DNA from: Lepisosteus oculatus
Lineage: Eukaryota; Chordata; Actinopteri; Semionotiformes; Lepisosteidae
Assembly: GCF_040954835.1 (NCBI RefSeq)
Contig: NC_090698.1
Span: 5,268,501-5,332,500, forward strand
Direction: 5' to 3'
Length of the DNA stretch: 64,000 nucleotides
This document shows, piece by piece, positions 1 through 59,900 of the stretch; positions within the stretch are counted from its first letter, which is position 1, and each line of letters opens with the position of its first letter. The notes beneath the pieces are model-generated. The model worked only from the letters and a program-made list of their open reading frames with translations. It made no database searches and was not told where the DNA came from. Made by a program: the position numbers and the translations under genes.

Positions 1-5640
<5,640 letters not shown>

Positions 5641-10287: not shown

Positions 10288-11046
10288 TCACAGCTCGTAG
10301 TCCCCGTCCTGCGCCTTGTACTGGTCCATGATCCTCAGCACGTCCTCCAGGATGGACGGCCCCAAGTCCAGGTCCAGCCCCAGCAGGGACTCGGAGTTGG
10401 GGACCCCGGGGGACTCGCTGCGCTCGCTCTGCAGGTCCTCGTTGCTCAGGCCCGCGTCCGAGTCGAGGCTGAGCCCCCGCCTGGCGTCCAGGGGCGGGCC
10501 GACCCCCAGCACCGAGTCCTCGGAGGACGCCTCGGAGAAGGAGCCGGAGGACGCCACCAGGCGGCCGAACGCCGGGATGGAGGCCGAGTGGCTGAGCTCG
10601 GGGTCGCTGTAGACGACGCGGGGCCCCTCGCAGCTCACGGACATGGAGCGCTGCGCCGGCGGGGTCTCCTCCAGGTGGAGGCGGGGGGGCTTGGGGGGCG
10701 CCTGCTCGGGGCTGAAGACGGGCAGGGAGACGGTGTTCTTGAGCAGGGTGGGCGCGGTGCCGGCCGGCTGCTGGCCCCTCTTGTCCGCCGGGGGGTTCTC
10801 GGCCCTCCCCCTCTCCGCGCTGCGGGACCGGGCCCGGCTCATGCCGGGGAGGAGGTCCAGCTTGCCCTGGATGAAGCCCACGTCCCCGAACATGTCCGTC
10901 TCGCCCTCGGGCCCCACGTGCGCGCTGTGGCGCAGGTCCCCCAGGGGCGGGCTGATCATATCCCCAGACAGGATGTCCCGCAGCTTGAGCTTCTTGCCCC
11001 GTTTCGGGGTGGACGTCTTCAGATACATTGGCGTCTTCGCCGGCAT
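10288..11046 (-). CDS. Cdc42 effector protein (BORG/CDC42EP family), CDC42EP2/3-like
   Basis: A 252-residue single-exon CDS. The start MPAKTPMYLK is the family N-terminus, preceded by CAGG. Residues 15-30 are a basic LRDILSGDM block, 31-45 the CRIB motif ISPPLGDLRHSAHVG, and 51-67 the BORG homology region (DMFGDVGFIQGKLDLLPG). Further on come LLKNTVSLP and APPKPPRLHLE blocks typical of CDC42EP2, and a C-terminal acidic helix (LDLGPSILEDVLRIMDQ). Family members bind GTP-loaded Cdc42 through CRIB and organise septins and actin at the cell cortex. The usual CRIB Phe is Leu38 here. The gene is very GC-rich, unlike its flanks. The paralogue is uncertain: the blocks look like EP2 and the N-terminus like EP3, while the only 19q member in human is EP5. 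An upstream ATG in frame at 11184 is rejected because homology starts at 11046. Confidence 0.92.
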   Translation of the reverse strand: MPAKTPMYLKTSTPKRGKKLKLRDILSGDMISPPLGDLRHSAHVGPEGETDMFGDVGFIQGKLDLLPGMSRARSRSAERGRAENPPADKRGQQPAGTAPTLLKNTVSLPVFSPEQAPPKPPRLHLEETPPAQRSMSVSCEGPRVVYSDPELSHSASIPAFGRLVASSGSFSEASSEDSVLGVGPPLDARRGLSLDSDAGLSNEDLQSERSESPGVPNSESLLGLDLDLGPSILEDVLRIMDQYKAQDGDYEL

Positions 11047-11126
11047 CCTGTTGCCCAGAGTGATCTGCTCCCAGATATGTCCCTGCTGCGCCGCACTGCG
11101 CCGCACTGCTCCGCGCTGCCTGACTC
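11047..11126 (-). promoter_or_regulatory. 5' UTR part of the Cdc42-effector coding exon, with candidate splice acceptor
   Basis: Upstream of the ATG the minus strand shows CGGTCTCCTGCAG ending at 11127, a good acceptor with an upstream TTAAC. The coding exon of BORG genes usually has such an acceptor a short way before the ATG, the first exon being non-coding. Confidence 0.5.
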
Positions 11127-13349
11127 CTGCAGGAGACCGGGGGGTTAATCTCTGCGCAGGAGAGGCCTGCGCATGAGTTGGCACCGTGTCTCTCTTCTTT
11201 AAACAGGAACAGATTAGACCAAGCGGGGATTATATATCTATATATTTCCAGGCCAGATCTCCTTCGGGCCAACGGAAGAACAAAAGGGATGTTTGTTTTC
11301 CGGATGCAGTGCCGTTGTGGTCTTTATTTCTGTGTTTTTTCGCCCCCCCCCGAGCCTCCCGCCACAGTCTGACCTGAGCGGCTTGAATGGCAGGCTGGTG
11401 AGAAAGGCCGGCTCCTTGCCGAGGGACACGCTAAATCCAGAAACCACCGAAAGCTTTTCTTCCCCCCAGCTTGATCTTGGGGAAGCTTCTACGTGACGGA
11501 TCCTTTGTCGAGCAAACCTCTCCCATATGCTGAGGGTGCTTCCCCTCCCCAGTAAAGTTGCAGTTAGAAAAGCAAGTCCTTGGGGACTTGGAAAAACGTT
11601 AACAACAATATTCTTCCGTCTGTCTCGTGCTGCACTCCTATACCTGGCAAGGGTGTGCAAAAATTCGGGATCTCTCGGAATGTGGTGCCGGGGTGCTATT
11701 CCCGCAGATCTGCAGGACAAACAGAAGAGAGAGATTTAGAGAAGAGACCAGGGTGAAAGGCACAATATAGGCGACACAAATAGCTTTGTACTTGCTCGAT
11801 ACTAAAATAACAGAGCAAAAACAGCTCCTTCAGATCTTCCTCACAGGCTTCTCAAATGGTGTCTTTTTTTGATTTTGTGTGCAAAGACGAATGTTTGGCT
11901 GACCTTGATGGCCTTTCTGGTTGGGCTCGTGAGTGGCTAAGCTATTGAAGGATATTTTAATATCAGGTGAAATACCTTCTTATAGCAACTCATTCAGTGC
12001 AAAGACGGCTAATCAAACACTTTGCAGGTATAGACAATCACCAGCTATTTGACTGTATCTGGATTGTGTTCCTGTCATCTGCGTCATTGAAACCAGGGAT
12101 GAGCAAGGGCACTTATCACACCATTGCTGCTGACCGCCTCAGGGGGAGAACTGCTTACCGATGAATTCTCGTCCCAATGTTTGAGACACTGGGTGTCTGT
12201 CCCTCTGTGGTACAGAGATTACTGAAAACTCTCATTTGCTTAAGACAACAAGCAGAGAAAGATCCTGGTCATAACCCCTATGAGAAACAAACTTCTTAAA
12301 AAAGTGTATGATGATGATGATGATGTTTCCTTTAAAATTAAAGTGATTTGGCTCAGCTCCTCTTGATCTAACCAAGGCGTGACATCACCAAGCGATGATA
12401 ATACCGATAAAGGGTGTGAGTGTGGGGAGAAGCAGGGGTCAGACTGCTGCACTCCTGCAGTGTCCAGAGCCGACAAGCCAGGAGATCGGCCAGATTATAA
12501 AGAAAAAGGAGGACATGGAGGGAGGAGGGCTGGTTGGGAGGGATTTACATGGCTGCAGCAGAAATTAAATCAGAGTTTTCCATTCCACTTTCTTCCTGGG
12601 GGATGGAACTCATGCAGGATTAGGGAGCCAGTGCACCGACACTTCCAAGACGATTCTCTAATCTTTTTAACTCCAGTGGAACATTTTCACCACATTCCGC
12701 AAACTCCAAATTCTGGTTCTTGACAAACTTTGAATGCGGGGAATAAAATATTTTTTACACCACCTCTCAAGACACGAGACGCACGCCTTCACACGCCAAG
12801 TCAGGAGTTGGTTCTGCCCCGAGACGAATTGTGTTAAAAGGTAACTCTCCAGCCAGCATTGTGCTGCCTGCCACTGGTCCTGCTGGTTCCTCACAAACCT
12901 GCACTTGGTCCGCATGTACAAGTTGGACAGCTATCTCCAGCAGTTCTCCAGGATCATTTCCCATAAATTCTGCTACTGGCAGAGGAGTGTCGGGTCTACT
13001 TCACTTCCTCCTCAGCACCTGTTCCGTTTTATTTATGCAGGACGCCGTTTTGATTCTTTATTACCGCTGTGTTCCTGCCACTTACTTATTTTAACCAGGG
13101 AGGGCTTTACACTAATTATAGCCCTGTGCCATCGTGGTAATGTTTTACAGTTTTAAGAGCTTGGGTGGTGCCTGCTTTTCCAGTCAATTAATGTCATCAT
13201 TACTAGAAAAGCAGCTGTTCCATTGCCTGTTTTATTATTCGACTTAAGCAAATCCCGCATGTGGCTGTGATCCGTGAAAGCTCCTCGGTCTTCACATCAC
13301 AAGAGTGCAAACAGAATGAAAAGCCACAGAATGCTCAGATCTCTCAGTC
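11127..13349. other. Putative Cdc42-effector intron 1, left part
   Basis: No gene recognised. It includes a short (GAT)n run at about 12308-12326. Open frames near 12.67-13.16 kb overlap on both strands and show no family motif. Confidence 0.5.
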
Positions 13350-23368: not shown

Positions 23369-23947
23369 TTAATAATATAATAATAATTGCTTACACTTAT
23401 ATAGCGCTTTTCTGGACACTCCACTCAAAGCGCTTTACAGGTAATGGGGATCCCCTCACCCCCACCAGTGTGTACCCCCACCTGGATGATGCGACGGCAG
23501 CCATAGTGCGCCAGAACGCTCACCACACACCAGCTCTCAGTGGGGAGGAGAGCAGAGTAATGTAGCCAATTCATAGAGGGGGATTATTAGGAGGCCATGA
23601 TTGGTAAGGGCCAATTGGAAATTTGGCCAGGACACCGGGGTTACACCCCTACTCTTTTCGAGAAGAGCCCTGGGATTTTTAATGACCACAGAGAGTCAGG
23701 ACCTCCGTTTTACGTCTCATCCGAAGGACGGCGCCTGTTTACAGTATAGTGTCCCCATCACTATACTGGGGCATTAGGACCCACATGGACCACTGGGTGA
23801 GCGCCCCCTGCTGGCCCCACTAACACCTCTTCCAGCAGCAACCTTAGTTTTTCCCAGGAGGTCTCCCATCCAGGTACTGACCAGGCTCACACCTGCTGAG
23901 CTTCAGTGGGTTGCCAGTTGTGAGTTGCAGGGTGATATGGCTGCTGG
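23369..23947 (-). mobile_element. 5S rRNA-derived SINE, full length (copy 3)
   Basis: The best-kept copy with a complete 5S head. On minus: AAGCTCAGCAGGTGTGAGCC, then the C box TGGATGGGAGACC (23860-23872), a body with AGCAGGGGGCGCTCACC, and a tail with GAGTGTCCAGAAAAGCGCTA and (TTA)n. The 5S head carries an RNA polymerase III internal promoter by family knowledge. Confidence 0.88.
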
Positions 23948-24300
23948 TTATATTGATGAACTGCTGTATCACAAATAGAGGCAAAAAAGAAGCTGTGGCT
24001 GACCAGCGTCTGTCCTGATGCCTATTGTGAGCTTCCAGAGAGATGGGCTTTCTTCAGGAAGCACTTCGTCAGCAACGGGAAGAGTCAGTCCAGAAACAGG
24101 CAGTGTCACGCACGCACAGCAGGGTGTGCGCTGATAAGGGATGAGGTAACAGGAAAACAGAGAGGATGCACAGGCTCTTTCTCATAGCCCATTCCAATTT
24201 AGAGGAGAGACTTTTTTGGGGGAGGTTGAATGCTGGCATGAGGTCTCACACAGTAGTGACATATGGGCTCCAAACACACATCCTTTTCTTGTTTACACCA

Positions 24301-32999: not shown

Positions 33000-34705
33000 T
33001 CACTGGCAGAAAGGGGAGGCCGTGGGGTCGAAGCCCTTGAAGACGTCTTTGAGGGACGCGGCGTCCTGCTCCGTGCTCTCGGGCTGCGCCGGGCTGTTGC
33101 CGCCGAAGGGGCTGCCGGCGCCGCCGGGCTTGCTGGCCTGCTTCACCATGCCGAACAGCGTGGACACGGGGAGGTTGTGGACGCCCGGCTGCGGCCCGGT
33201 CTCCGGGTTGCCGGCGGCGGCGGCGGCGGCGGCAGGGGCGGCGCCGGCCCCTGGGCCGGCCCCAGCGGCGGGCGGGGGCGTGGGCTTGGGCCGGGGCCGG
33301 TTGTAGCTGTTGTACCTGTCCGTCGCCGGCTCGCCGGCGCTCTTCTCCGCCTCCGGCTGGTCCAGGGCGGACTTGCGCACGAACAGGGGCTCCTTGGGCT
33401 TGCTCTTGCTCGGCTCCGGGGCGGAGGCCGCCGAGGGGGCGGGGGCGGAGGAGGAGGCGGCCGCAGAGGGGGCGGGGGCCCCGGCGCCCTCCGGTTTGCC
33501 CGAGCTCTGAGTCCGCGGGTCGTACAGGCTGATCCCGCTGAGCACGCTGCTCTGGCTGCCGCCCCCACCCCCCACCCCTCGGGCGGCCCCGCCGGCTGAC
33601 AGCAGCCGCGGGTCGTATGGGGCGATGGTGGTGGACGACGGGGGGGAGGCGGCTGGGGCAGGGGGCTGGGGGGCGGCCGCGGGGGCCGGGGCCTCGGCGG
33701 GCTGCTTCAGGGCTGGTTTCTGAGGCAGCAGCCGGGGGTCAGCTGGGGTTTTGCGCATGATCCTGGGGTCCACCGGCTTCTCTGCGGGAGCCGCCGCCGC
33801 CGCCGTTGAGGCCGCTGCAGAGGGCTGGGGCGACGGGGACTGCTGGGAGTTGGGGGAGCCCCCGGAAGAGGCGTTGACCGTCTTCAGGATGCGGGAAATC
33901 AGCTCGAAATCCGGGAGGGAGGAGGGCACAGGGTCCGAGGCAGCCGGGGGGGTGGGCGTGGAGGAGGTGTGGAGCAGCTGCTGGGCCCTGTTGAGCCGCG
34001 GGTCCATGCTGGTCACGGGCGGGATGCCGGGGGGCAGCGGGAGCAGGTCCTGTTTCGGGATGGGCAGGGGGATCAGGTCCTCGGGGTTCCACAGGACCGT
34101 CTTGGAGAAGTGGGGCTTGTGCAGGACGATGTCCTTCTTGATGTGGCTGAACTGCTGCAGCTGAGACCGCGGATCCCGCAGCGCCTGGCCCAGCAGGGGC
34201 TCCAGGGGGATGGGCACCGGCTTGTCCCTCAGCACCCTCTCCCCGTCCTCTTCATCCGCCGCCGAGGAGGAGGAGGCGGCAGCGGCGGCGGCGGTGGTGG
34301 TGGAGGCCGGGACCGAAGACGGGGGAGGCTTGTGGTGGGCCGAGGCGTGAGGGGCTTCCAGCTTGGGAGGCAGGCTGGCTGCGTGGCGGGCCAGCCGGGG
34401 GTCCACAGGGGCTGAGGAAGAGGAGGAGGAAGGCGCAGCAGAGGGGCTGCCCTCTGCACTGTGGCTGGGTTCTGCAGTCCGAGAGAGGCGGGGGTCCCGG
34501 GACAGCCTTGGGTCCGCAGGGCGGCTGGAGGCATGTGTGGCCTGGGACTTTTGCAGTCGGGGGTCGGTCAGGACGCTGGGGCTCGACTCGGACGAGTGCG
34601 CCTGCTTGGCAGCAGCCTGGGTCTGCTGCCTGAGGGTCTTCAGGATAGAGGTCACGCTGCCTCCACCATCCTCGTCCTCACTAGAGTACCAGTTGGCTGA
34701 ATCGC
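33000..34705 (-). CDS. zc3h4: zc3h4 exon 14 (terminal, DPRL-repeat tail)
   Basis: Residues 808-1375 and stop TGA at 33000-33002. Starts [20 protein letters not shown]. Many DPRL/DPR repeats, low-complexity Ala and Pro runs, and the conserved C-terminus. Confidence 0.95.
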
Positions 34706-37700
34706 CTGTTAAAATAGAAAACACAAAATCGGGCATGAAGAGATGTTCCTGAACTCATAAAAATGTATATGCCACTTATTACCTTGAGCTGATTTAAAAC
34801 ATTTAAGTAAATCAGTTTAAGTAAATCACATTAAGTAAATCAGTTTGACCTTCTCTTGATCAAGTAAGGCAGGTAATGTAAACTACGGAGGCTCGTTCTA
34901 AGCTGTAACTAAACACTGATGTAATTTATTTATTGATGACAGGTTACAGCCCTTTATAGAAACGCCATATTTAAACAACAGAAGAGCAACAAAAGACAAA
35001 TTTAGCCAACAATCTGAACAGAAGCTGGAATCTTTACAGATATCTTGACTGGTAATTCTCAGCATGCTGAAGCCACTGTTTGCGCACGATTCAAAAACCA
35101 GGACCACCACATCGAGAAATGACGCTGCCCCGGAACGCCAGAATGACATTGGACACACGTCGGACTGACACATGGAAAACGTGGGGTACCTTCCGTGTCC
35201 CTCTCGGCGCCCCCCTCGGCCAGCCGCCGGGCCTCCTCCTCCTGCTGCTTCTGCTGGATCCTCATGAAAAGAGCGCGCTGGGCCGCCGGCAGGAAGTCCG
35301 GCACGTTTATCCCCTGCTGCTGATTGGGCGCTCCGGCAGGGGCAGGGGGGGCCTGCTCATGGAACGAGCCCATGCCGCCTTCCTCTTCCTCCATCCCTCC
35401 GTATTCTTCATACTCTTCTCCTGCAGGCACACAGGAGAGATCCCCCATCACTTCACACTCTGGACCCACAGGACAGCACTGGCCAGTGCTCCTCCCCACC
35501 TCACCCAAGAGCAGTGGAGCTGTCTAACACGACATGAGCATCTGCGTCAGGCCCTACAGTCGACCTGCGCTTTAGCTCTACCTTCCACGGCTGTGTTTGT
35601 GCTCGGAGCTGTGCTGCATGCATCCCTGCCTCCAGGTTGCTCTGTGCGATTTCTGGCATGTGAGAAAGCTACCACATTGGAAGAATAACCAAAGAATGGC
35701 CAAGCACCTCACATTCATACACAATGTCAACATCTTTTTCCTTCGCTCAAGAGGATATGCTCTCTGTATTTGTGGGACGTCAGAGTTAAAAAATTGTCTA
35801 AGGCACAAAATGAGCTCAAGAGAACACACGTATGCTAAAGAAATAAAACAGGACTTTTTTCACTGCCACAGATTTGGACTCATCAGGTTGGAGACAAATT
35901 CTACGCTGATGCACAGATCACTGAAAGCTGCCCTGCTGGTGCTTCCCCCCTCTATGCCCAAGATGTGCGCCCAAGCTGTGTCAGCGTGCCAGTCTGTTGC
36001 GGGGCACAGGGTCTACTCACCTTCTTCTCCTCCACCCTCCATCTCCTGCTGGTGATAGAAGTTATCGTAAAAGTTCGGTCCGGGGGGAGGGGGTCCAGGA
36101 GGCATCATTCCAGGGTGGGGCGGCCCCTCTCCTGGCCCGAAACCCGGCATCATTGGCGGCCCGGGACCCATCGGTGGCGGCCCTTGGTTCATGCCAGGAG
36201 GTCCCATCGGGGGCATGTCATGCGGGCCCGGGGGCCTCATGCCTGGAGGCCCAGGCGGTGGGCCGGGACCCATATGCCCTGGGGGTCCGGGAGGGCCAGG
36301 GAACCGAGGTGGGGGTGGGCCTGGAGGACCAGGTGGACCAGGAGGGACAGGGGGACCTGGGGGACCTGGGGGGCCTGGTGGGCCGGGAGCTCTGCAAGAA
36401 AAGATTGTCCATTTCTTAAAGCTCAAATAAAAAGCAAAACTTTTTTTCAACAAAGTCTAACATGAATCACTTTGATGCAGGAAACATAACTAATACGGTC
36501 TCCATGCAATCCATTGCATGCTAGTCAATAAGAAACAAGTTTAATAAAAGAGTGAACTAGGGGCTCCTCCTGCTGGCTTGGCTCACCTGACGCCCAGTTT
36601 CTGTGCCAGCTGTCCGGTTGGCTGCACCACAATCTCAAACAGCGACGGGATCTTCTTCTGAGAGTTCCCGGGACAGGGTGGTGGGGGGGCCATTGGCGGG
36701 GGTGGGGGACCAGGAGGGGGTGGCTGTCCAGGACAGGGCCCGGGTCCGGGGGGTCCCGTGGGCATGGGGCCGGGGGCTGGGCCAGGCGGGCAAGAGGGGG
36801 GCATGGAGCCCCCTGGTGAGCTCGGATCGGCAGGGCCAGGCCGGGGTGGCGTGGGCAGCAAACCTACGCCCGGGGGTGGCTTGGGCAGGGGGTTGATGCC
36901 TTGCTTCTTCAGCTCCTCCACCTCCTTCTCATCCTCTGCACCAGCCTCGGCGTCCTCCGCTAGCATCTGTACAGGAAAGGGGCCGTTACCGAGTGGACTG
37001 GGACACTGAAGACCACAGAGCAGGCGCAGGAATCTGTCCGCCTGCGGTCTACGTCCAGGGATCAAGAGCTAAGAGGGCGAGGGACGGCCGCACCTTGTCC
37101 AGCAGGTCCTTGGTGTCATCCGTCAGGGGCTCGTGGGAGAACATGCAGTCGTCTCCATTGACGCAGCTTCCTGTGGTGTGGAACAGCTTGCAGGGGAAGT
37201 CGCGTGAGGCCGAGTTAAGGATGGAAAGACAGTCAAACAGAACTCCCCAGTGATGGGATGCCCGTCCCACTCGCACCAAAATCGGGTTCAGGCAGCTTTC
37301 AGCGCCCTCCTTTAGAGACTAGTGATAAATGAAAGCCTGACACATTGCAGTGCCGTGTCCTCTCACACTGGCATTTCTGGTCCAGGGTATACAGCGCCAC
37401 CTGCTGCTTTACTAACACACATAGGCACAAGACGATTTCTCTTAGTAAGAAGCAACAGGACCATGTGCTTGAAAAAACACTCTAGAAATAACACGCTCCC
37501 AAACAGTGCCTTCTTTTAACAACCTTTCCCTGGATATTTAAACATTTTTTTTCTGTTGAGATAATACATTTCAGATGTATGGAATTGAAGGGTAAAATGT
37601 GTTTACATATACTCCAAAATACAGAGGCCATGCAGATATAAATAATACAGTTCAAAATGGAGGAGAGACCAACACATCCAGATCTGAAGACTTGGATACC

Positions 37701-40700
37701 TATGTATCACACGGGGGCCTAATGCAGACATCTTACAAGACCCAAAGAACAGGCCAGCTAGATTATTTCACCACTTCACACAACACCAGTTTTTACTGAA
37801 CCAGGTGCTGCCTCCATTGCAAAGCCAATAAGCAGCAGAACGCACGGCAGTGAAGGATATCATGCATGTAGGGGCAGTTCTCGGCCCGCGCGCAGAAGCC
37901 CGTGATGTAGAACTTGCACAGCTCCTTCTTCTTGGGCAGCTCAATGTCGTGGCTGAAGTTGCAGTGCTCTCCCTGTAAATGAATTACACGAATGAGAATT
38001 TTTAAAAACAATGTCATTTCCAAAAACGCTCAAATCTGATCTGCTTCTTACATCGCAAGCAGAAAAAAAGGGGTTCGGCTATTCCCCACGCTCCGTCACT
38101 CGCAGCTAGGGGACCCTCAACCCTGTTCTTCTTCCCTCATCTTCACTCCTTGTTCTATTCCGTTAAGTCCAGGGTAAACACTGACAGCTTTGATCGCCTG
38201 CATACAGGAGTCTACAACACAGCCTAACTTGCTCAAATATGTATGTTTTTTTCTGTGACTTCCTGCAAGGAAATTATTATTTTTTTCTTTATTCTTTTGT
38301 TTCTCAGTGAAAATTGAACCGGAAATGTGGCTCGATATCTGCCCCCCCCCCGTGCAGCAGCGCACGTCCCAGAGCAACGTACCCAGGTGCAGCGTCCCTC
38401 TATGTAGTACTTGCAGATGACCTTCCCCTTCTTGTCAGAGACCTGCTGGTGCGATTTGTCCTGATCATTCCTGCGCTGCCCTCCCCCGCCATCCTGCAGG
38501 GACACCGTTGAGACACACTGAGTCACCCTAGCAGCTCAGGGTGAGGGAGACAGATGCGGCAGAGGGCTACAGCCAACTTATTCTTAGGCAAATATAGAAG
38601 TGCAAACTCTCAGATACACACAGAAAGAGGTCAAAATTCAGTTGGACAAGCAGGTTGGTTTTAAAAGGTTGCATCCGAAAACAAACTACTTTGAGCAACA
38701 GCTCAGAGGGAGAAAACAGCCGAAAGTTCAAACAAAGGCTGAATACACGTTTTTCTAAGTTGGAGCTGTACTGAGAGTTAGCTTACGTTTATTTAGTGTT
38801 TGGAAAAGAGAAGAGAGTTTGCAGCGGATAAGAGGCACAGACTACAGGAATCAAGAAGCAGGAAACTGCTGTGACAGCTGCACAGAGCTCAATCCACCTG
38901 TGGTTACAAGTGTTCTGCTGCCGAAGAGTGAAGACATGCCTGGCAGACCGCGGCTCACTCACCCCCATGTCCATGTCGCCGTTGTTGTCCTCGTCGTTAC
39001 CCCCGCAGTCCCCGCCTCGCCCCCTGCCTCGGTGGTTCCTCCCCCGGCCCCGGTTCATGCCCCGGCCCCCCTTGCCTCTGCCGCGGCCGCGCCCACCTTT
39101 GCCACCTGCCGGAACGGGGAAGGAAGTGACACGGGTCACGGACAGGCGGGGAGACAGCACCGGGTCTCTTGTAGCTGCGCGCCAGTGAGGCCGCAGGAGG
39201 GCTTGGCTGAAATATTCAATCCAAGGGAAAGGACTATGCGCTGCCCTGATCTCGAATCACCACATGGGTTAATCACTGAGCCCGAGAAAACAACAAAACT
39301 CTGCTGTGTCTCACAACGGGCAGCAGGGGGCGCCACACCTCTATGTCTTCACCATACACCCCCATTGCCATACACTCTATAAAGAAAAGACCCTTGGATA
39401 CAAGATATTAACAAAGGTAATTTTGGGACTAAAAAGGAGCTACTTAACAATCAGGGCTGTGTGCCTCTAGAATATAGAGCTCTACCAGCCTCCAGTACAG
39501 CTGAAGCAGACTCAGGAATTGGCTGAATCAGGTTCTTGGATCAATAAAGTCCAAACTACTAAACAAGCAAAACAGGTGTTAATGGGCGACTCTCTTCTGA
39601 AACTTTTTTTTCCTCTTCTGACCCCCAAAAAATGCCGGTGAGGCAGACTGGCTATGGCACAGATGTTTACCCAGGCTGTACCAGAGAAACACAGCCATGG
39701 CCAGTGCTGGTTCTGCAGGGCACCGGACCTCACCTCTGCCTCGGTTGGGCCCCTCCTTTGCCTTCCGGTACTGGTTCAGCTCTTTGGAGTAATCATCATA
39801 ATCTTCCTCACACATGTTGTCATAGTCGTCCTCTCCATACTGTAGAAAAACCATACAAACCAAATCACAAAACGCAAAGTTACTGTCAGATGTAACAGCC
39901 AAACTGACCGAGAAGCATTCTGAATAATCTCAACAAAAATAATAAATAATCTATGAGGTATTTTGGTCTTGATGATAATGTAGCCACCCCACCAACCTAA
40001 CATTTTTTCCAAACACCATCTAAGCAGCTAGCCATTAACTAGTGCTAAAGCGGTCTTCTTCTGTTAGTGTCCCCCTGGTGAGTTTTCTATAAATCTAAAC
40101 TGTTCACCATTTTAAGAATACTCATCTAAGGAACTATAATCCTTTTGTTACGTTTTATACCTGTAATCACTACTTATTTTAACACGTAAAACTTAAAACA
40201 AGCCTACAGGTGAGGGGATCTCTGCTGGGTAGCTGCTTTTCATACTGAATGGACCAGGAAATTGTATATATCTGGTGGAAGGGTGGCAGTCCCCCTTGTA
40301 GAAACTGGGCTGCAGAAAATCCAGTGATCTGAACCGCGCCCATTTTCCAGCTCATTTCTTAAAAAACGTCAATGTTACATTTCAGAGAACACGGGATTAG
40401 GAGCTGGGCTGAGGTGGGGGAGTGGGATCCGGAACAGCAATTCCGATGGGCCTGCGCTGCCCTGATCCCTGAATTCCACATGGCCAGCGACGACACCTGA
40501 GAAAATAAACCACAGGCCACGGGGCGGCGCCTCACCTCCATGTCTTCGCCGTACATCCCATCGCCGTCGTCGTTCTCGCCACCCATCTTGCCCCGCCCCC
40601 GGCCCCTGCCGCCCCCGCCCCTGCCGACACGCCCTCTCATTCCTCCTCGGCCACGCCCTCGCTGGTTCTTCATCCGCCCTTTGCCTCCTGGGAAGAGAGG

Positions 40701-43700
40701 AACGCGATGCTAGACCTGACCGTGTGTCGACTTACAGAACATAGCAGGATGTATTTCAGTGCTGCTGCACGGGTAGTGTGCCAAAACAAACATGCTGTAG
40801 GAGAGGCCCGCAGTCTACCACATCCTGTAAGTCAGAGTTAGTAGGGAAGCTTCACCTGGGAAATCAAAGCCCCAACAACTGCAAAATACACACTGTTTTA
40901 TTACCTTTATCAGCAGCAAGGTAAACCCACAGCTCGTGTTCTAGCTGCTGATGTGAAAAATAACTTCTTGCATTTGTATGCAGGTGTTCATCCCATAGAA
41001 TCCCAATTTTTTTCATAGTACGGCACCCAGTTGACCCCCAGGGTGACACTGGGCCACTGTGCCTCATCAGGAGCCTCCTCTACAGCAGATCAGCTGGAGG
41101 AGTGAGGAATTTCTTTACCAGCTGATTTAAGGGCTAAATCAATTCATGCAGCACTGTTGCAGCATGCTAGCCTTCTCCTGACGGAGAGGAAAGTCCTATC
41201 TTTTCAAAATCAGAAGGACATAAACTGAACAAGGAGTCACAAAGTACGCATAATTAAACCTTATGAAATCTGTTGCTTTTGTGTTCCGATTACTCTCGTT
41301 TGCTCACCTCTTCCTCCACGGTTGCCGCCTCCTCCTCCTCCTCCTCCTCCTCCTCCTCCACCACCACCACCACCTCCTCCTCCTCCCTCCTTGGCTTTGC
41401 GGTACTGGTTCAGCTCCTTGGTAAAGTCGTCGTATTCGTCCTCACCCATCTCCTCATCCTCCTCGCCCTCGTAGTTGTCTTCCTCATAGTCATCGTAGAC
41501 CCCATAGCTCTGCTTCTCCATCTTCATGTAGCCCCCCTTCTTGGGCATGGGGCCACCGTGTGAGGGAGGGGGGTACCCAGAATGGGGCTGGCAGAGAAAA
41601 GGCATGTCCACAGTAAGCACTGATGCGTGCAATATGAGCACAACTACACTCATGGACAATCACCAGCATCAGGCTCTGTGTGATGTAGGGGGCCGTGCTC
41701 CCTGATAAGAATGTATTTTGTCTGCTCTCTTCAGGGCTCGGTGCTGTAATGTCTAGGCATAAAGGCTACTCGCCTTGTGGCAGAGCTCTGTGCATCGCGA
41801 ATCAGGAGAGGTGCTCTATTTTGTCAAGCATCTGCAACCAACATTTCCAAGCCATCTCCCATCATCTCAAACTCAACCTCTCAAAAGTTTGCAATTTTCA
41901 CGCCTGCTTCCTGGTTGCAGGATTTCTCTGAAATAACTAACGGATAGAGAAGAATGCAGAAGGGTCCTCTGGCAAGAGGCTTCACCTCAACACCAGAGCT
42001 AGGAGGGGACTGACCGGCGGTGGTGGGTACTGGGGGCTGTACTCCCGGTACTTCCTGTGGCTCTTCTCAGTGGGGCTGTAATCTGATTCGTCGCTGAAGT
42101 CCGAATGGTCATCGCTGGAGGACGCATGCCGCTGGGGAAACACCGAGGAAGAGGAAGATCTTAAGGACGCCAAACAGCGACAAAAACACAGCGTAGGTCC
42201 GGTTTCGGCACGGCTTTGCACAATCACTGCTGCTATCAAAACATTTTGTCCTTGCAAGAGGAACTTTCAATGGGCTTTAAATACATAGATGTATCTGGTG
42301 TGAGAACAGTGTTTTAAGCAGCATTACACCAGACAGGCTATAAGCTCTCTTTAAACAGAACTATCACCTCTAACTAGAACAACATTTCTATGCATGTAAT
42401 ATATTCTCATTACTTAAAGATCAATAATATGAAGTCCGAGCTGTGCAGGTCCCCCTGAGTTACTGAACCTCCTGTGCTCAGATGCTGCTCTGCTGTCAGC
42501 GAATCTGCAAACCGTGCTCCCTCTCAGACCGAGCATGCGCTCCTCGTCTCGGCAAGCTGCCCTGGTGAAAGCACGGCTCGGCCGAGCGGCTATTTTAAAC
42601 TCACTTTGTGCTTGGATTTGCGCCTCTTCTTGGCCCTCCTCTTCTCCTTCTCTCTCTCTTTCCTCCTCTTCCTCTTGCGGCGGTGGGCCTTGTCCTCGTC
42701 GGAGCCACTGCCGTGCCGCTCCCTGCCGTGGCGCGTCTTCTCCTGCGGCTCCCCGGCGCCGCTGGGGGCCTCCGCCTCGCCCCCGTCGTCCTCCAGCTCC
42801 CCCTCCTCCAGCTCGCCATCCTCGCGGCTGCAGGGACAGGGACAGGGCGAGAGACGTCACCGCGCGGCCCCTCGCCTCTCAGACCAGGCAGGTATTGGCA
42901 GCTCTGGGGCCGAAGTGCGCTCATACTCCTTGACCAATTTCAGCTGACACTGTGGACAGCACGGCCGTAAAACAGATGCAGCCATACTGGAAAGAAGCAG
43001 TATAGCCGCCATAAGATTTTTCACTCTTCTGGCTTGTGTATTAGTCTGCACCAGAAACAGACAGAATCACTTTGAGCTGGGGTATCCCATCCAGGTAGGT
43101 CACAGTGCATCTGCAGGTTTTCAACCCAAGGTGAAACTTAAGGAACTAAAACAGCTCATTAATTGGGCCAATTAGGCTACAGTGCACCCAGCTCTCTTTA
43201 AAGGGACCGAAATATCCTACAGATACATCAGCCCCTCAGGGACCAGAAACAGATCTTCCAGGTCTGGAGTCGGAACCAAAACAGTAGACAACCACTTAGC
43301 TGTTTGTCAGCTGTACATCACAAGTCATAAACAAAATATTCTGCAGAAATGTTTTACAAAGACTACAGCATTGGGGAAGACAAAACAAGACGATTGGAAA
43401 TGCTCAGTTAGAAGACTGGTGCTTTCTCAGAGATATACGTGAAAGATGCGGTTTTGAGCCATACCACTGCTGCAGAATGGAGGCGAAAAGCATGAGATAC
43501 AATCATAAACCACTCCATGTCAATAATTAGCTGTCAGTAGTAAATCTGAATCTGAATCTATTTCAGACCTTCGACACTGGCCTGCTTCACAGGTTTTATA
43601 AACTGGAATTTCTCTTAACTCCAGAAGTCAAAAGGCTATAATGTGTCCAATAAAAGACAAGAACGATTTCAGTGGGAAAAAAAAGAAACCCGTTTAGGGG

Positions 43701-56900: not shown

Positions 56901-59900
56901 GTAGGGAGCTGCGTCAGCATGTGTGGGCTGCAAAGGAACAAGTTAAAGGTTTATTCCAGGCTGAAAAGAGAAGAAAGGAAACACAATGTTTCGGCTGTGG
57001 AGCCTTCTTCAGGTGTGGAGAACTCAGCCTGTGTCCACACCTGAAGAAGGCTCCACAGCCGAAACGTTTTTTCCTTTCTTCTCTTTTCAGCCTGGAAATT
57101 AGCCTCTACATGTTCTTTTGCATACAACTGTAACACTCCACACTTATCTACATTAAATGTCATCTTCCAGGTGTTTGCCCAGTCCTGTATTTTGAGTAAA
57201 TCTTTAAAAACCTCCTGTGCTGTTTTTACAGTGTTTAACCCAACTTTGGCAGCTTTTGTGATTGGGGAGGGGGGGGTGGACTTATGGTATATGACTATGT
57301 GAGTAAACGGAGAAAAACACATAGGTCCTGCAATAGAAAAACTAGACTAAGCAAGAAGATGTAACGAAAATAATTACAAAATTTTGAGAACCGCTTTTCT
57401 GTTTGTTAATGGCGTATTGATTGGAGGATCTCAGCCAGTCCTTTCCCGAAAGCTCCCAAACAGTGTATTTCTGCAGCAAGACTTGTTCCAGGCACTCGCC
57501 TCTCTTTGTGTAAAGAAATTAGGCTTAAAAAACAAAGACTTTTCATTTGTCCAGGAAGAGGGTTTAAGAGGTCCTGCATTGCCTACTTTTCTTACCCCTG
57601 CCCCTCTCTTGTTTCTGTCTCAGGTGACCGAGGAGTCCAGCCGAGCGCAGTTTCTCATCCCAGTGGGTTCTGAGGGTCAGAACCGGGCCCAGACCTCACT
57701 GGAGCGTGCTCAGTACCTGAACCCCATGGTGGAAGTAAAGGCAGACCCCGAGAGAGCCGAGTCCAAGCCTGAGGATTTCTTCCTGCAGTTTGATGCGGTG
57801 AGTGCTTTGGAGAGCGGAGACAGGGCGGGTTTCCTGTTGCTGTGCTCTACTGCTCATCCTTCACCATCCAGTGCGCAAAGTTCCTTCTGCTTTCTTGTTT
57901 CTAGTAGGGGTGTGTGTTCAGAAAGTGGAAAGAAACAGCATTGTCTAACGTCGTCTTTAGTTTAGCTTTAGTGCCCAGGGTAAGGGCTGTGGGGCAATCA
58001 GGAGGAATAGGGGGAAGCAGAGATTTTGCTACATCTACATAATAATAATAATTCCTCACACTTATATAGCGCTTTTCTGGACACTCCACTCAAAGCGCTT
58101 TACAGGTAATGGGGATCCCCTCCACCCCCACCAGTGTGCAACCCCACCTGGATTATGCGACGGCAGCCATAGTGCGCCAGAACGCTCCCCACACACCAGC
58201 TATTAGTGGGAGGAGAGCAGAGTAATGAAGCCAATTCATAGAGGGGGATTATTAGGAGGCCATGATTGGTAAGGGCCAATGGGAAATTTGGCCAGGACAC
58301 CAGGGTTACACCCCTACTCTTTTCGAGAAACGCCCTGGGATTTTTAATGACCACAGAGAGTCAGGACCTCTGTTTTACGTCTCATCCGAAGGACGGCGCC
58401 TGTTTACAGTACAGTGTCCCTGTCACTATACTGGGGCATCAGGGCCCACATGGACCGCAGGGTGAGCGCCCCCTGCTGGCCCCACTAACACCTCTTCCAG
58501 CAGCAACCTTAGTTTTTCCCAGGAGCTCTCCCATCCAGGTACTGACCAGATTCACACCTGCTGAGCTTCAGTGGGCTGCTAGTTGTGAAATGGCTGCTGA
58601 AAGTATTATTCACCGCAGAGCAGTGGCTCTGTGGCTAAGGAACCCCACCTGTGTCTGGAAGGTTGCCAGTTCAAATCCTACTCCGCTGGGTCCCTGAGCA
58701 AGGCCCTTAACGCTAACTGCTCCAGGGGCGCTTACAATGGCTGACCCTTTGCTCTGACCCCCAGCTTCCCTCACTGTCTGTGTGTCTCGTGGAGAGCAAG
58801 CTGGGATCTGTGAAAAGACAAATTCCTAATGCAAGAAATTGTATATGACTTTTAAAATGATTTAAAAATAATAATAAGGCAGATGTTATGGAGCAGAATA
58901 CCTGTTGATGGTTACAGACTGTTGACAGACACGTATAGTGGAGAAAACGGCACAGATTGGCCAAATAAACTTTGTACTACTTCATGCTTTTCACTGCGCA
59001 ATGAGAGATGGTTTGAAGAAGAGAGGCAGAAAGCAGCAGCTTCACTGGTGAAAGAAGTGAAGTTGTTTCCGGGAGCCCTTTGTTTCTGCTTTGGAAGTTG
59101 TTTATATATACCCGTATATAATAACAGTGTTATTTGCTTTATGTGCAAAATGTAAAATATTTCACTGTTAAATCAATAAATTACGAAACAGAAAATCTTT
59201 TAGTTTAAGTGCAACCATTCTGAATGTTTCCCTTTTCTTGAAAGCCAAATAGCAATTTCTTGCAGTTCCCAAAAAACCCACTAGGTGATGCTTTTGCCCC
59301 TTCTTTCCACACAGCAGCCAGTTCCCTGAAGGTTAATCAGTCAGGAGAACTAAGCTCTTTGAATTTAAAAAAGAGCTGCTTTTAAGTACCAGGACATTTT
59401 AACCCCTGAGCAATAATAATAAATTACCCCACTCAAAGCGCTTTGCGGGTAATGGGGACTCCCCTCCACACCCACCACCATTTCTTTCAACTGCTGTGAA
59501 CTCTACACACCACACATCGGCTCGGTTACAGTTACACTGGTTTGCAAAGCATAAATGGGGGGCTGTTCGTTCCTGTGCACTGTAAGTGTATTGTGAATAT
59601 AGTAGCATGTAACGGTATGCTAAGACTAATATAACTGTTCAGGCGGGGGGCTGCGTCAGCAGGCGTAGGCTGCAAAGGAACAAGTAATGGGTTTATTCCA
59701 TGCTGAACAGAGAAGAAAGAAAACACAACGTTTCGGCCGCGGATCCTTCTTCAGGTGTGAGGAAGGCTCACGCCTCACACCTGAAGAACTCCACGGCCGA
59801 CACATTGTTTTCTTTCTTCTCTGTTCAGCATGGAATTAACCCATTACTTGTACCTAATATAATTGTTACTCATCTGGATTGACTCTTTCGGCCTTACATG

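Follow-up and report, generated by a model that had tools for sequence, protein, structure and literature searches.

The zc3h4 gene carries, between its second and third zinc fingers, what is very probably (about 0.95) an old intron of the U12-type AT-AC class, at a position that it shares with a zc3h6-like paralogue in the same genome. From the sequence we infer that this intron is spliced through the minor spliceosome. The donor ATATCCTT would be read by U11 and then by U6atac, TCCTTAAC would be paired by U12, and removal of the intron would join finger 2 to finger 3. The analysed window is the whole 64-kb stretch C3:5268501-5332500 of a 1.2 Gb genome, with zc3h4 on the minus strand. The coordinates of the features discussed below are collected in Table 1.

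The gene model starts downstream of the ATG-bearing exon, which was left out, and the exon numbers 1-13 follow this model. Eleven of its 12 introns have GT-AG ends, and a single one (37860-37204) has AT-AC ends. The encoded CCCH fingers resemble those of human KIAA1064, which we take to be ZC3H4. The finger region was aligned to the human protein (PDB 2CQE) over 88 residues with an E value of 1.4e-53 and no gap across the junction (...NCPYMHGDFPCKL...), and it was also matched by the Pfam family zf-CCCH_9 'KIAA1064-like' with 105.6 bits. This bears out the original prediction that joining 37861 to 37203 brings the two exons exactly onto a conserved protein block. Human ZC3H4 limits non-coding transcription and has ZC3H6 as its paralogue (PMC8137146). 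Viral contigs were also searched for relatives of the fingers, and none were found.

Table 1. Positions of the zc3h4 gene model, of its AT-AC intron and splicing signals, and of the corresponding intron of the paralogue (window coordinates unless a locus is named)
Feature	Position	Strand	Remarks
zc3h4 coding exons 1-13	33000..42827	minus	single open frame, 1347 codons including stop
zc3h4 exon 8	37861..37972	minus	from the end of finger 1 as far as the final His of finger 2; 3' end ...TAC ATG CAT G
AT-AC intron	37204..37860	minus	657 nt, phase 1; between exon 8 (end 37861) and exon 9 (start 37203)
U12-type 5' splice site ATATCCTT	37853..37860	minus	+1 to +8; 8/8 to consensus
Branch site TCCTTAAC	37214..37221	minus	8/8 to consensus; likely branch A 37215 or 37216
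AC 3' splice site	37204..37205	minus	read directly in the sequence
zc3h4 exon 9	37094..37203	minus	110 nt; GDFPCK...DK, contains finger 3
zc3h6-like AT-AC intron	L012 4261-4800		540 nt, phase 1; same codon as the zc3h4 intron

Read on the minus strand, the two junctions of the intron are ...TACATGCATG/ATATCCTTCACT...TTTCCATCCTTAACTCGGCCTCAC/GCGACTTCCCCTGC..., so that it begins ATATCCTTC and finishes CAC. Donor and branch octamers were scored against the consensus sequences printed in PMC2831892. The branch octamer ends 10 nt before exon 9, a distance of 11 nt when counted from its second A. As had been predicted, the intron lies just past the final His of finger 2, after the first base of the next codon. 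Together, the complete donor, the complete branch site close to the acceptor and an AC terminus where protein conservation places the junction assign the intron to the U12-type AT-AC class, which upholds the original prediction. Among the other 11 zc3h4 introns, donors differed from the U12 consensus at 3 to 6 positions, and the best branch-like octamer within the last 45 nt had 1 to 4 mismatches. The nearest miss was intron 1, in which TCCTTAAG is present, yet the donor has 4 mismatches. The zc3h4 intron shares with known U12-type AT-AC introns both octamers, the AC terminus, the short distance from branch to acceptor and phase 1, and zc3h4 likewise has a single minor intron amid GT-AG introns. 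Its anatomy is without difference from that class. As an intron it is ordinary, one more of a well-known class, and the noteworthy part is the gene that hosts it.

A second gene of the family was detected on C17 of the same genome and read in part (L012). From its long C-terminal part we presume that it is zc3h6, and we refer to it as zc3h6-like. It contains an intron of the U12-type class at the homologous position (ATATCCTTT...TCCTTAAC...AC), in the same codon and phase, with donor and branch octamers identical to those of zc3h4. On both sides, the flanking introns of the two genes are GT-AG introns of phase 0 at corresponding finger positions. The two AT-AC introns differ in length and in their interiors, and in the zc3h6-like branch region (TTTCCTTAAC) the acceptor lies 14 nt after the second A as opposed to 11 in zc3h4. 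When the interiors were compared, leaving out the first 15 and the last 35 nt of each intron, 168 of 200 shuffles scored as high as the real pair. Since the interiors have become unrecognisable and the octamers are identical, the comparison points to selection on the U12 signals since before the split of zc3h4 and the zc3h6-like gene, and the intron itself would predate that split. The zc3h6-like mRNA also permits junction shifts of 1 and 2, neither of which creates GT-AG ends.

A third family member (zc3h8) was sought in the genome with the fingers of both genes, and none was found. These searches gave 7 and 8 matches. In each, zc3h4 and the C17 gene accounted for three exons apiece; the rest were CCCH exons that look makorin-like by eye, one on C4 in both searches and another on C5 in the second. 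A scan for the CCCH pattern in 50 kb around the C17 gene, which fingers split by introns escape, returned three matches, two of them inside the gene and one spurious. As a separate observation, ATATCCTT recurs in the zc3h6-like exon (L012 4805-4812, GAA TAT CCT TGC), 4 bases past the AC acceptor. This amounts to a decoy U12 donor just beyond the gene's own minor intron, and it is probably a coincidence.

At the level of snRNA genes, the host possesses the minor spliceosome, as matches above the Rfam cut-off were obtained for U12 (three places; 125.3, 125.3, and 71.2 bits), U11 (one place, 107.9 bits), U6atac (six places, 129.9 to 37.3 bits), and U4atac (one place, 100.7 bits). The top two U12 genes are identical and lie on C12 in opposing orientations, with about 16 kb between them (L001 1501-1654 and L002 1501-1654). 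Beside one strong U6atac gene there are five U6atac-like copies (L019-L023) of 86 to 37 bits, which are probably pseudogenes.

The genome's own U12 was predicted to form a duplex of -9.1 kcal/mol with the zc3h4 branch region in which the A at 37216 stays unpaired. For the zc3h6-like gene, the best predicted duplex was continuous (-8.3 kcal/mol) and had no bulged A. When the last 40 to 5 nt of each intron were considered, the AT-AC intron gave the strongest U12 duplex of the 12 zc3h4 introns (-10.8 versus -3.2 to -7.4 kcal/mol), and that of the zc3h6-like gene reached -8.5 versus -7.4 and -7.3 for its neighbours. Predicted pairing with U6atac separated the AT-AC intron only weakly in zc3h4 (-6.8 versus +0.5 to -6.6) but did set it apart in the zc3h6-like gene (-6.4 versus -0.2 and +0.6). 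The energy of U11 pairing with the donor was tried as a classifier and rejected as not discriminating, since the AT-AC intron of zc3h4 (-4.0) fell among its GT-AG introns (-3.6 to -10.8). The strength of the U12 duplexes speaks for the minor-spliceosome assignment; the missing bulge in the zc3h6-like gene, the weak U6atac contrast in zc3h4 and the uninformative U11 energies speak against it.

With the intron retained, the reading frame runs on for 22 residues beyond the final His of finger 2 before it meets a stop, without a shift of frame because 657 = 3 x 219. Skipping of exon 9, on the other hand, shifts the frame and leads to a stop after 12 further residues. By either route finger 3 and everything downstream are lost. 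The original prediction had stated that failed splicing would remove finger 3 and shift the frame; the first part stands, and the second holds for exon skipping and fails for retention. Decay of mRNA that bears such a stop is to be expected. If minor splicing were limiting, the intron would stay in the transcript with its early stop, and no full-length ZC3H4 would be made from it. On these grounds we infer a dependence of ZC3H4 dosage on minor splicing.

Human minor introns have been counted at 770 (PMC6717393) or about 850 (PMC9881141), with about 26% belonging to the AT-AC subtype (PMC10639083). The closest functional comparison is Integrator, in which 4 of 14 subunits (INTS4, INTS7, INTS8, and INTS10) contain minor introns, and cells with mutant RNU4ATAC lose INTS7 and INTS10 protein (PMC9881141). 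Like these genes, zc3h4 has a minor intron and belongs to the metazoan machinery acting at non-coding transcription units. Integrator is a separate complex, for which patient cells have demonstrated both the retention of introns and the loss of protein, whereas for zc3h4 such effects are predicted from the sequence. Minor introns in termination machinery are therefore nothing new in kind. That zc3h4 should need the minor spliceosome becomes less surprising because the same intron occurs in its paralogue and because the minor introns of Integrator are known. Our literature search, which did not extend to supplementary tables or to the databases MIDB, U12DB, and IAOD, found no report joining ZC3H4 with minor introns, U12-type introns, or the minor spliceosome, and the intron may well be listed already for human in U12 databases. 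One candidate report (PMC11460701) was discarded, as both of its zc3h mentions refer to ZC3H11A. The value of the finding is modest: a firm and probably ancient U12 intron common to two paralogous genes for a factor that regulates non-coding transcription. If the intron is conserved in mammals, ZC3H4 and its paralogue ZC3H6 would rank alongside Integrator among the genes dependent on the minor spliceosome, and minor-spliceosome disease would gain a testable link to a failure to stop non-coding transcription.

A wider reading turns this shared intron into a working control point, at which the level of the minor spliceosome would set overall early termination through zc3h4, zc3h6, and Integrator subunits. 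The presence of the intron in both paralogues and the Integrator precedent described above are consistent with it, as is the dependence of minor-intron genes on a U6atac level that is limiting and responds to stress (PMC3728624). On the other side, much of minor-intron evolution may be neutral (PMC10639083), and in PMC9501576, PMC6717393, and PMC10639083 the main text contains no occurrence of the string 'zc3h'. We consider such a control point unlikely. Were the ZC3H4/ZC3H6 pair and Integrator gated together by the minor spliceosome, reduced U6atac or U12 function would impair several routes of early termination simultaneously. Antisense and enhancer transcription left unchecked might then be a feature common to minor-spliceosome diseases, which is a speculative and rather doubtful extension.

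The assignment to the minor spliceosome also had to be weighed against removal by the major (U2) spliceosome, as occurs with AT-AC introns in some sodium-channel genes. AT-AC ends alone prove no route, since U2-type AT-AC introns exist; these carry G at donor position +5 (both points from PMC2831892), whereas zc3h4 and its paralogue have C at this position. With the full U12 match of the zc3h4 branch site added to this, a U2 route appears highly improbable, and the U12-type assignment is preferred.

Neither the octamers nor strict pairs of them are remarkable by themselves in 64 kb. The donor octamer was found 3 times in the window versus 1.59 expected (a count of 3 is attained in 20 of 100 shuffles), and the branch octamer 3 times versus 2.13 expected (35 of 100). 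Strict combinations of donor, branch, and acceptor within 5 kb numbered 3, the zc3h4 intron included, versus 0.33 expected under a first-order Markov model, in which 55 of 200 simulated windows contained at least one. The two further strict pairs (minus strand, 11955/9281 and 22466/19736) were taken as chance. Placement is a different matter: TCCTTAAC fell within the acceptor-proximal window in only 2 of 20,000 shuffles of intron 37860-37204, and the chance of the donor octamer at a given position is about 1e-5 (1.59/128000). Chance does not explain both motifs at a junction set by protein conservation, nor their recurrence in the paralogue. The idea that the motifs are coincidental and that a nearby GT-AG pair is the true junction can draw on their frequency in the window, but it is scarcely credible given that no other junction slid from -6 to +6 reproduces the zc3h4 mRNA, that the joined protein aligns to human ZC3H4 without a gap, and that the arrangement is repeated in the paralogue. 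The original prediction that no GT-AG alternative exists accordingly holds, within shifts of -6 to +6, for junctions giving the same message.

Elsewhere in the window, the sole Rfam match at the gathering threshold was a 5S rRNA-like sequence (23830-23948, minus strand, 52 bits), possibly a pseudogene of 5S or else the head portion of a SINE of 5S origin. Three open reading frames resemble, by eye, exons of what are presumably ERCC2 (5009-5590, minus), a CDC42EP-family gene (10288-11229, minus), and SAE1 (57351-57965, plus).
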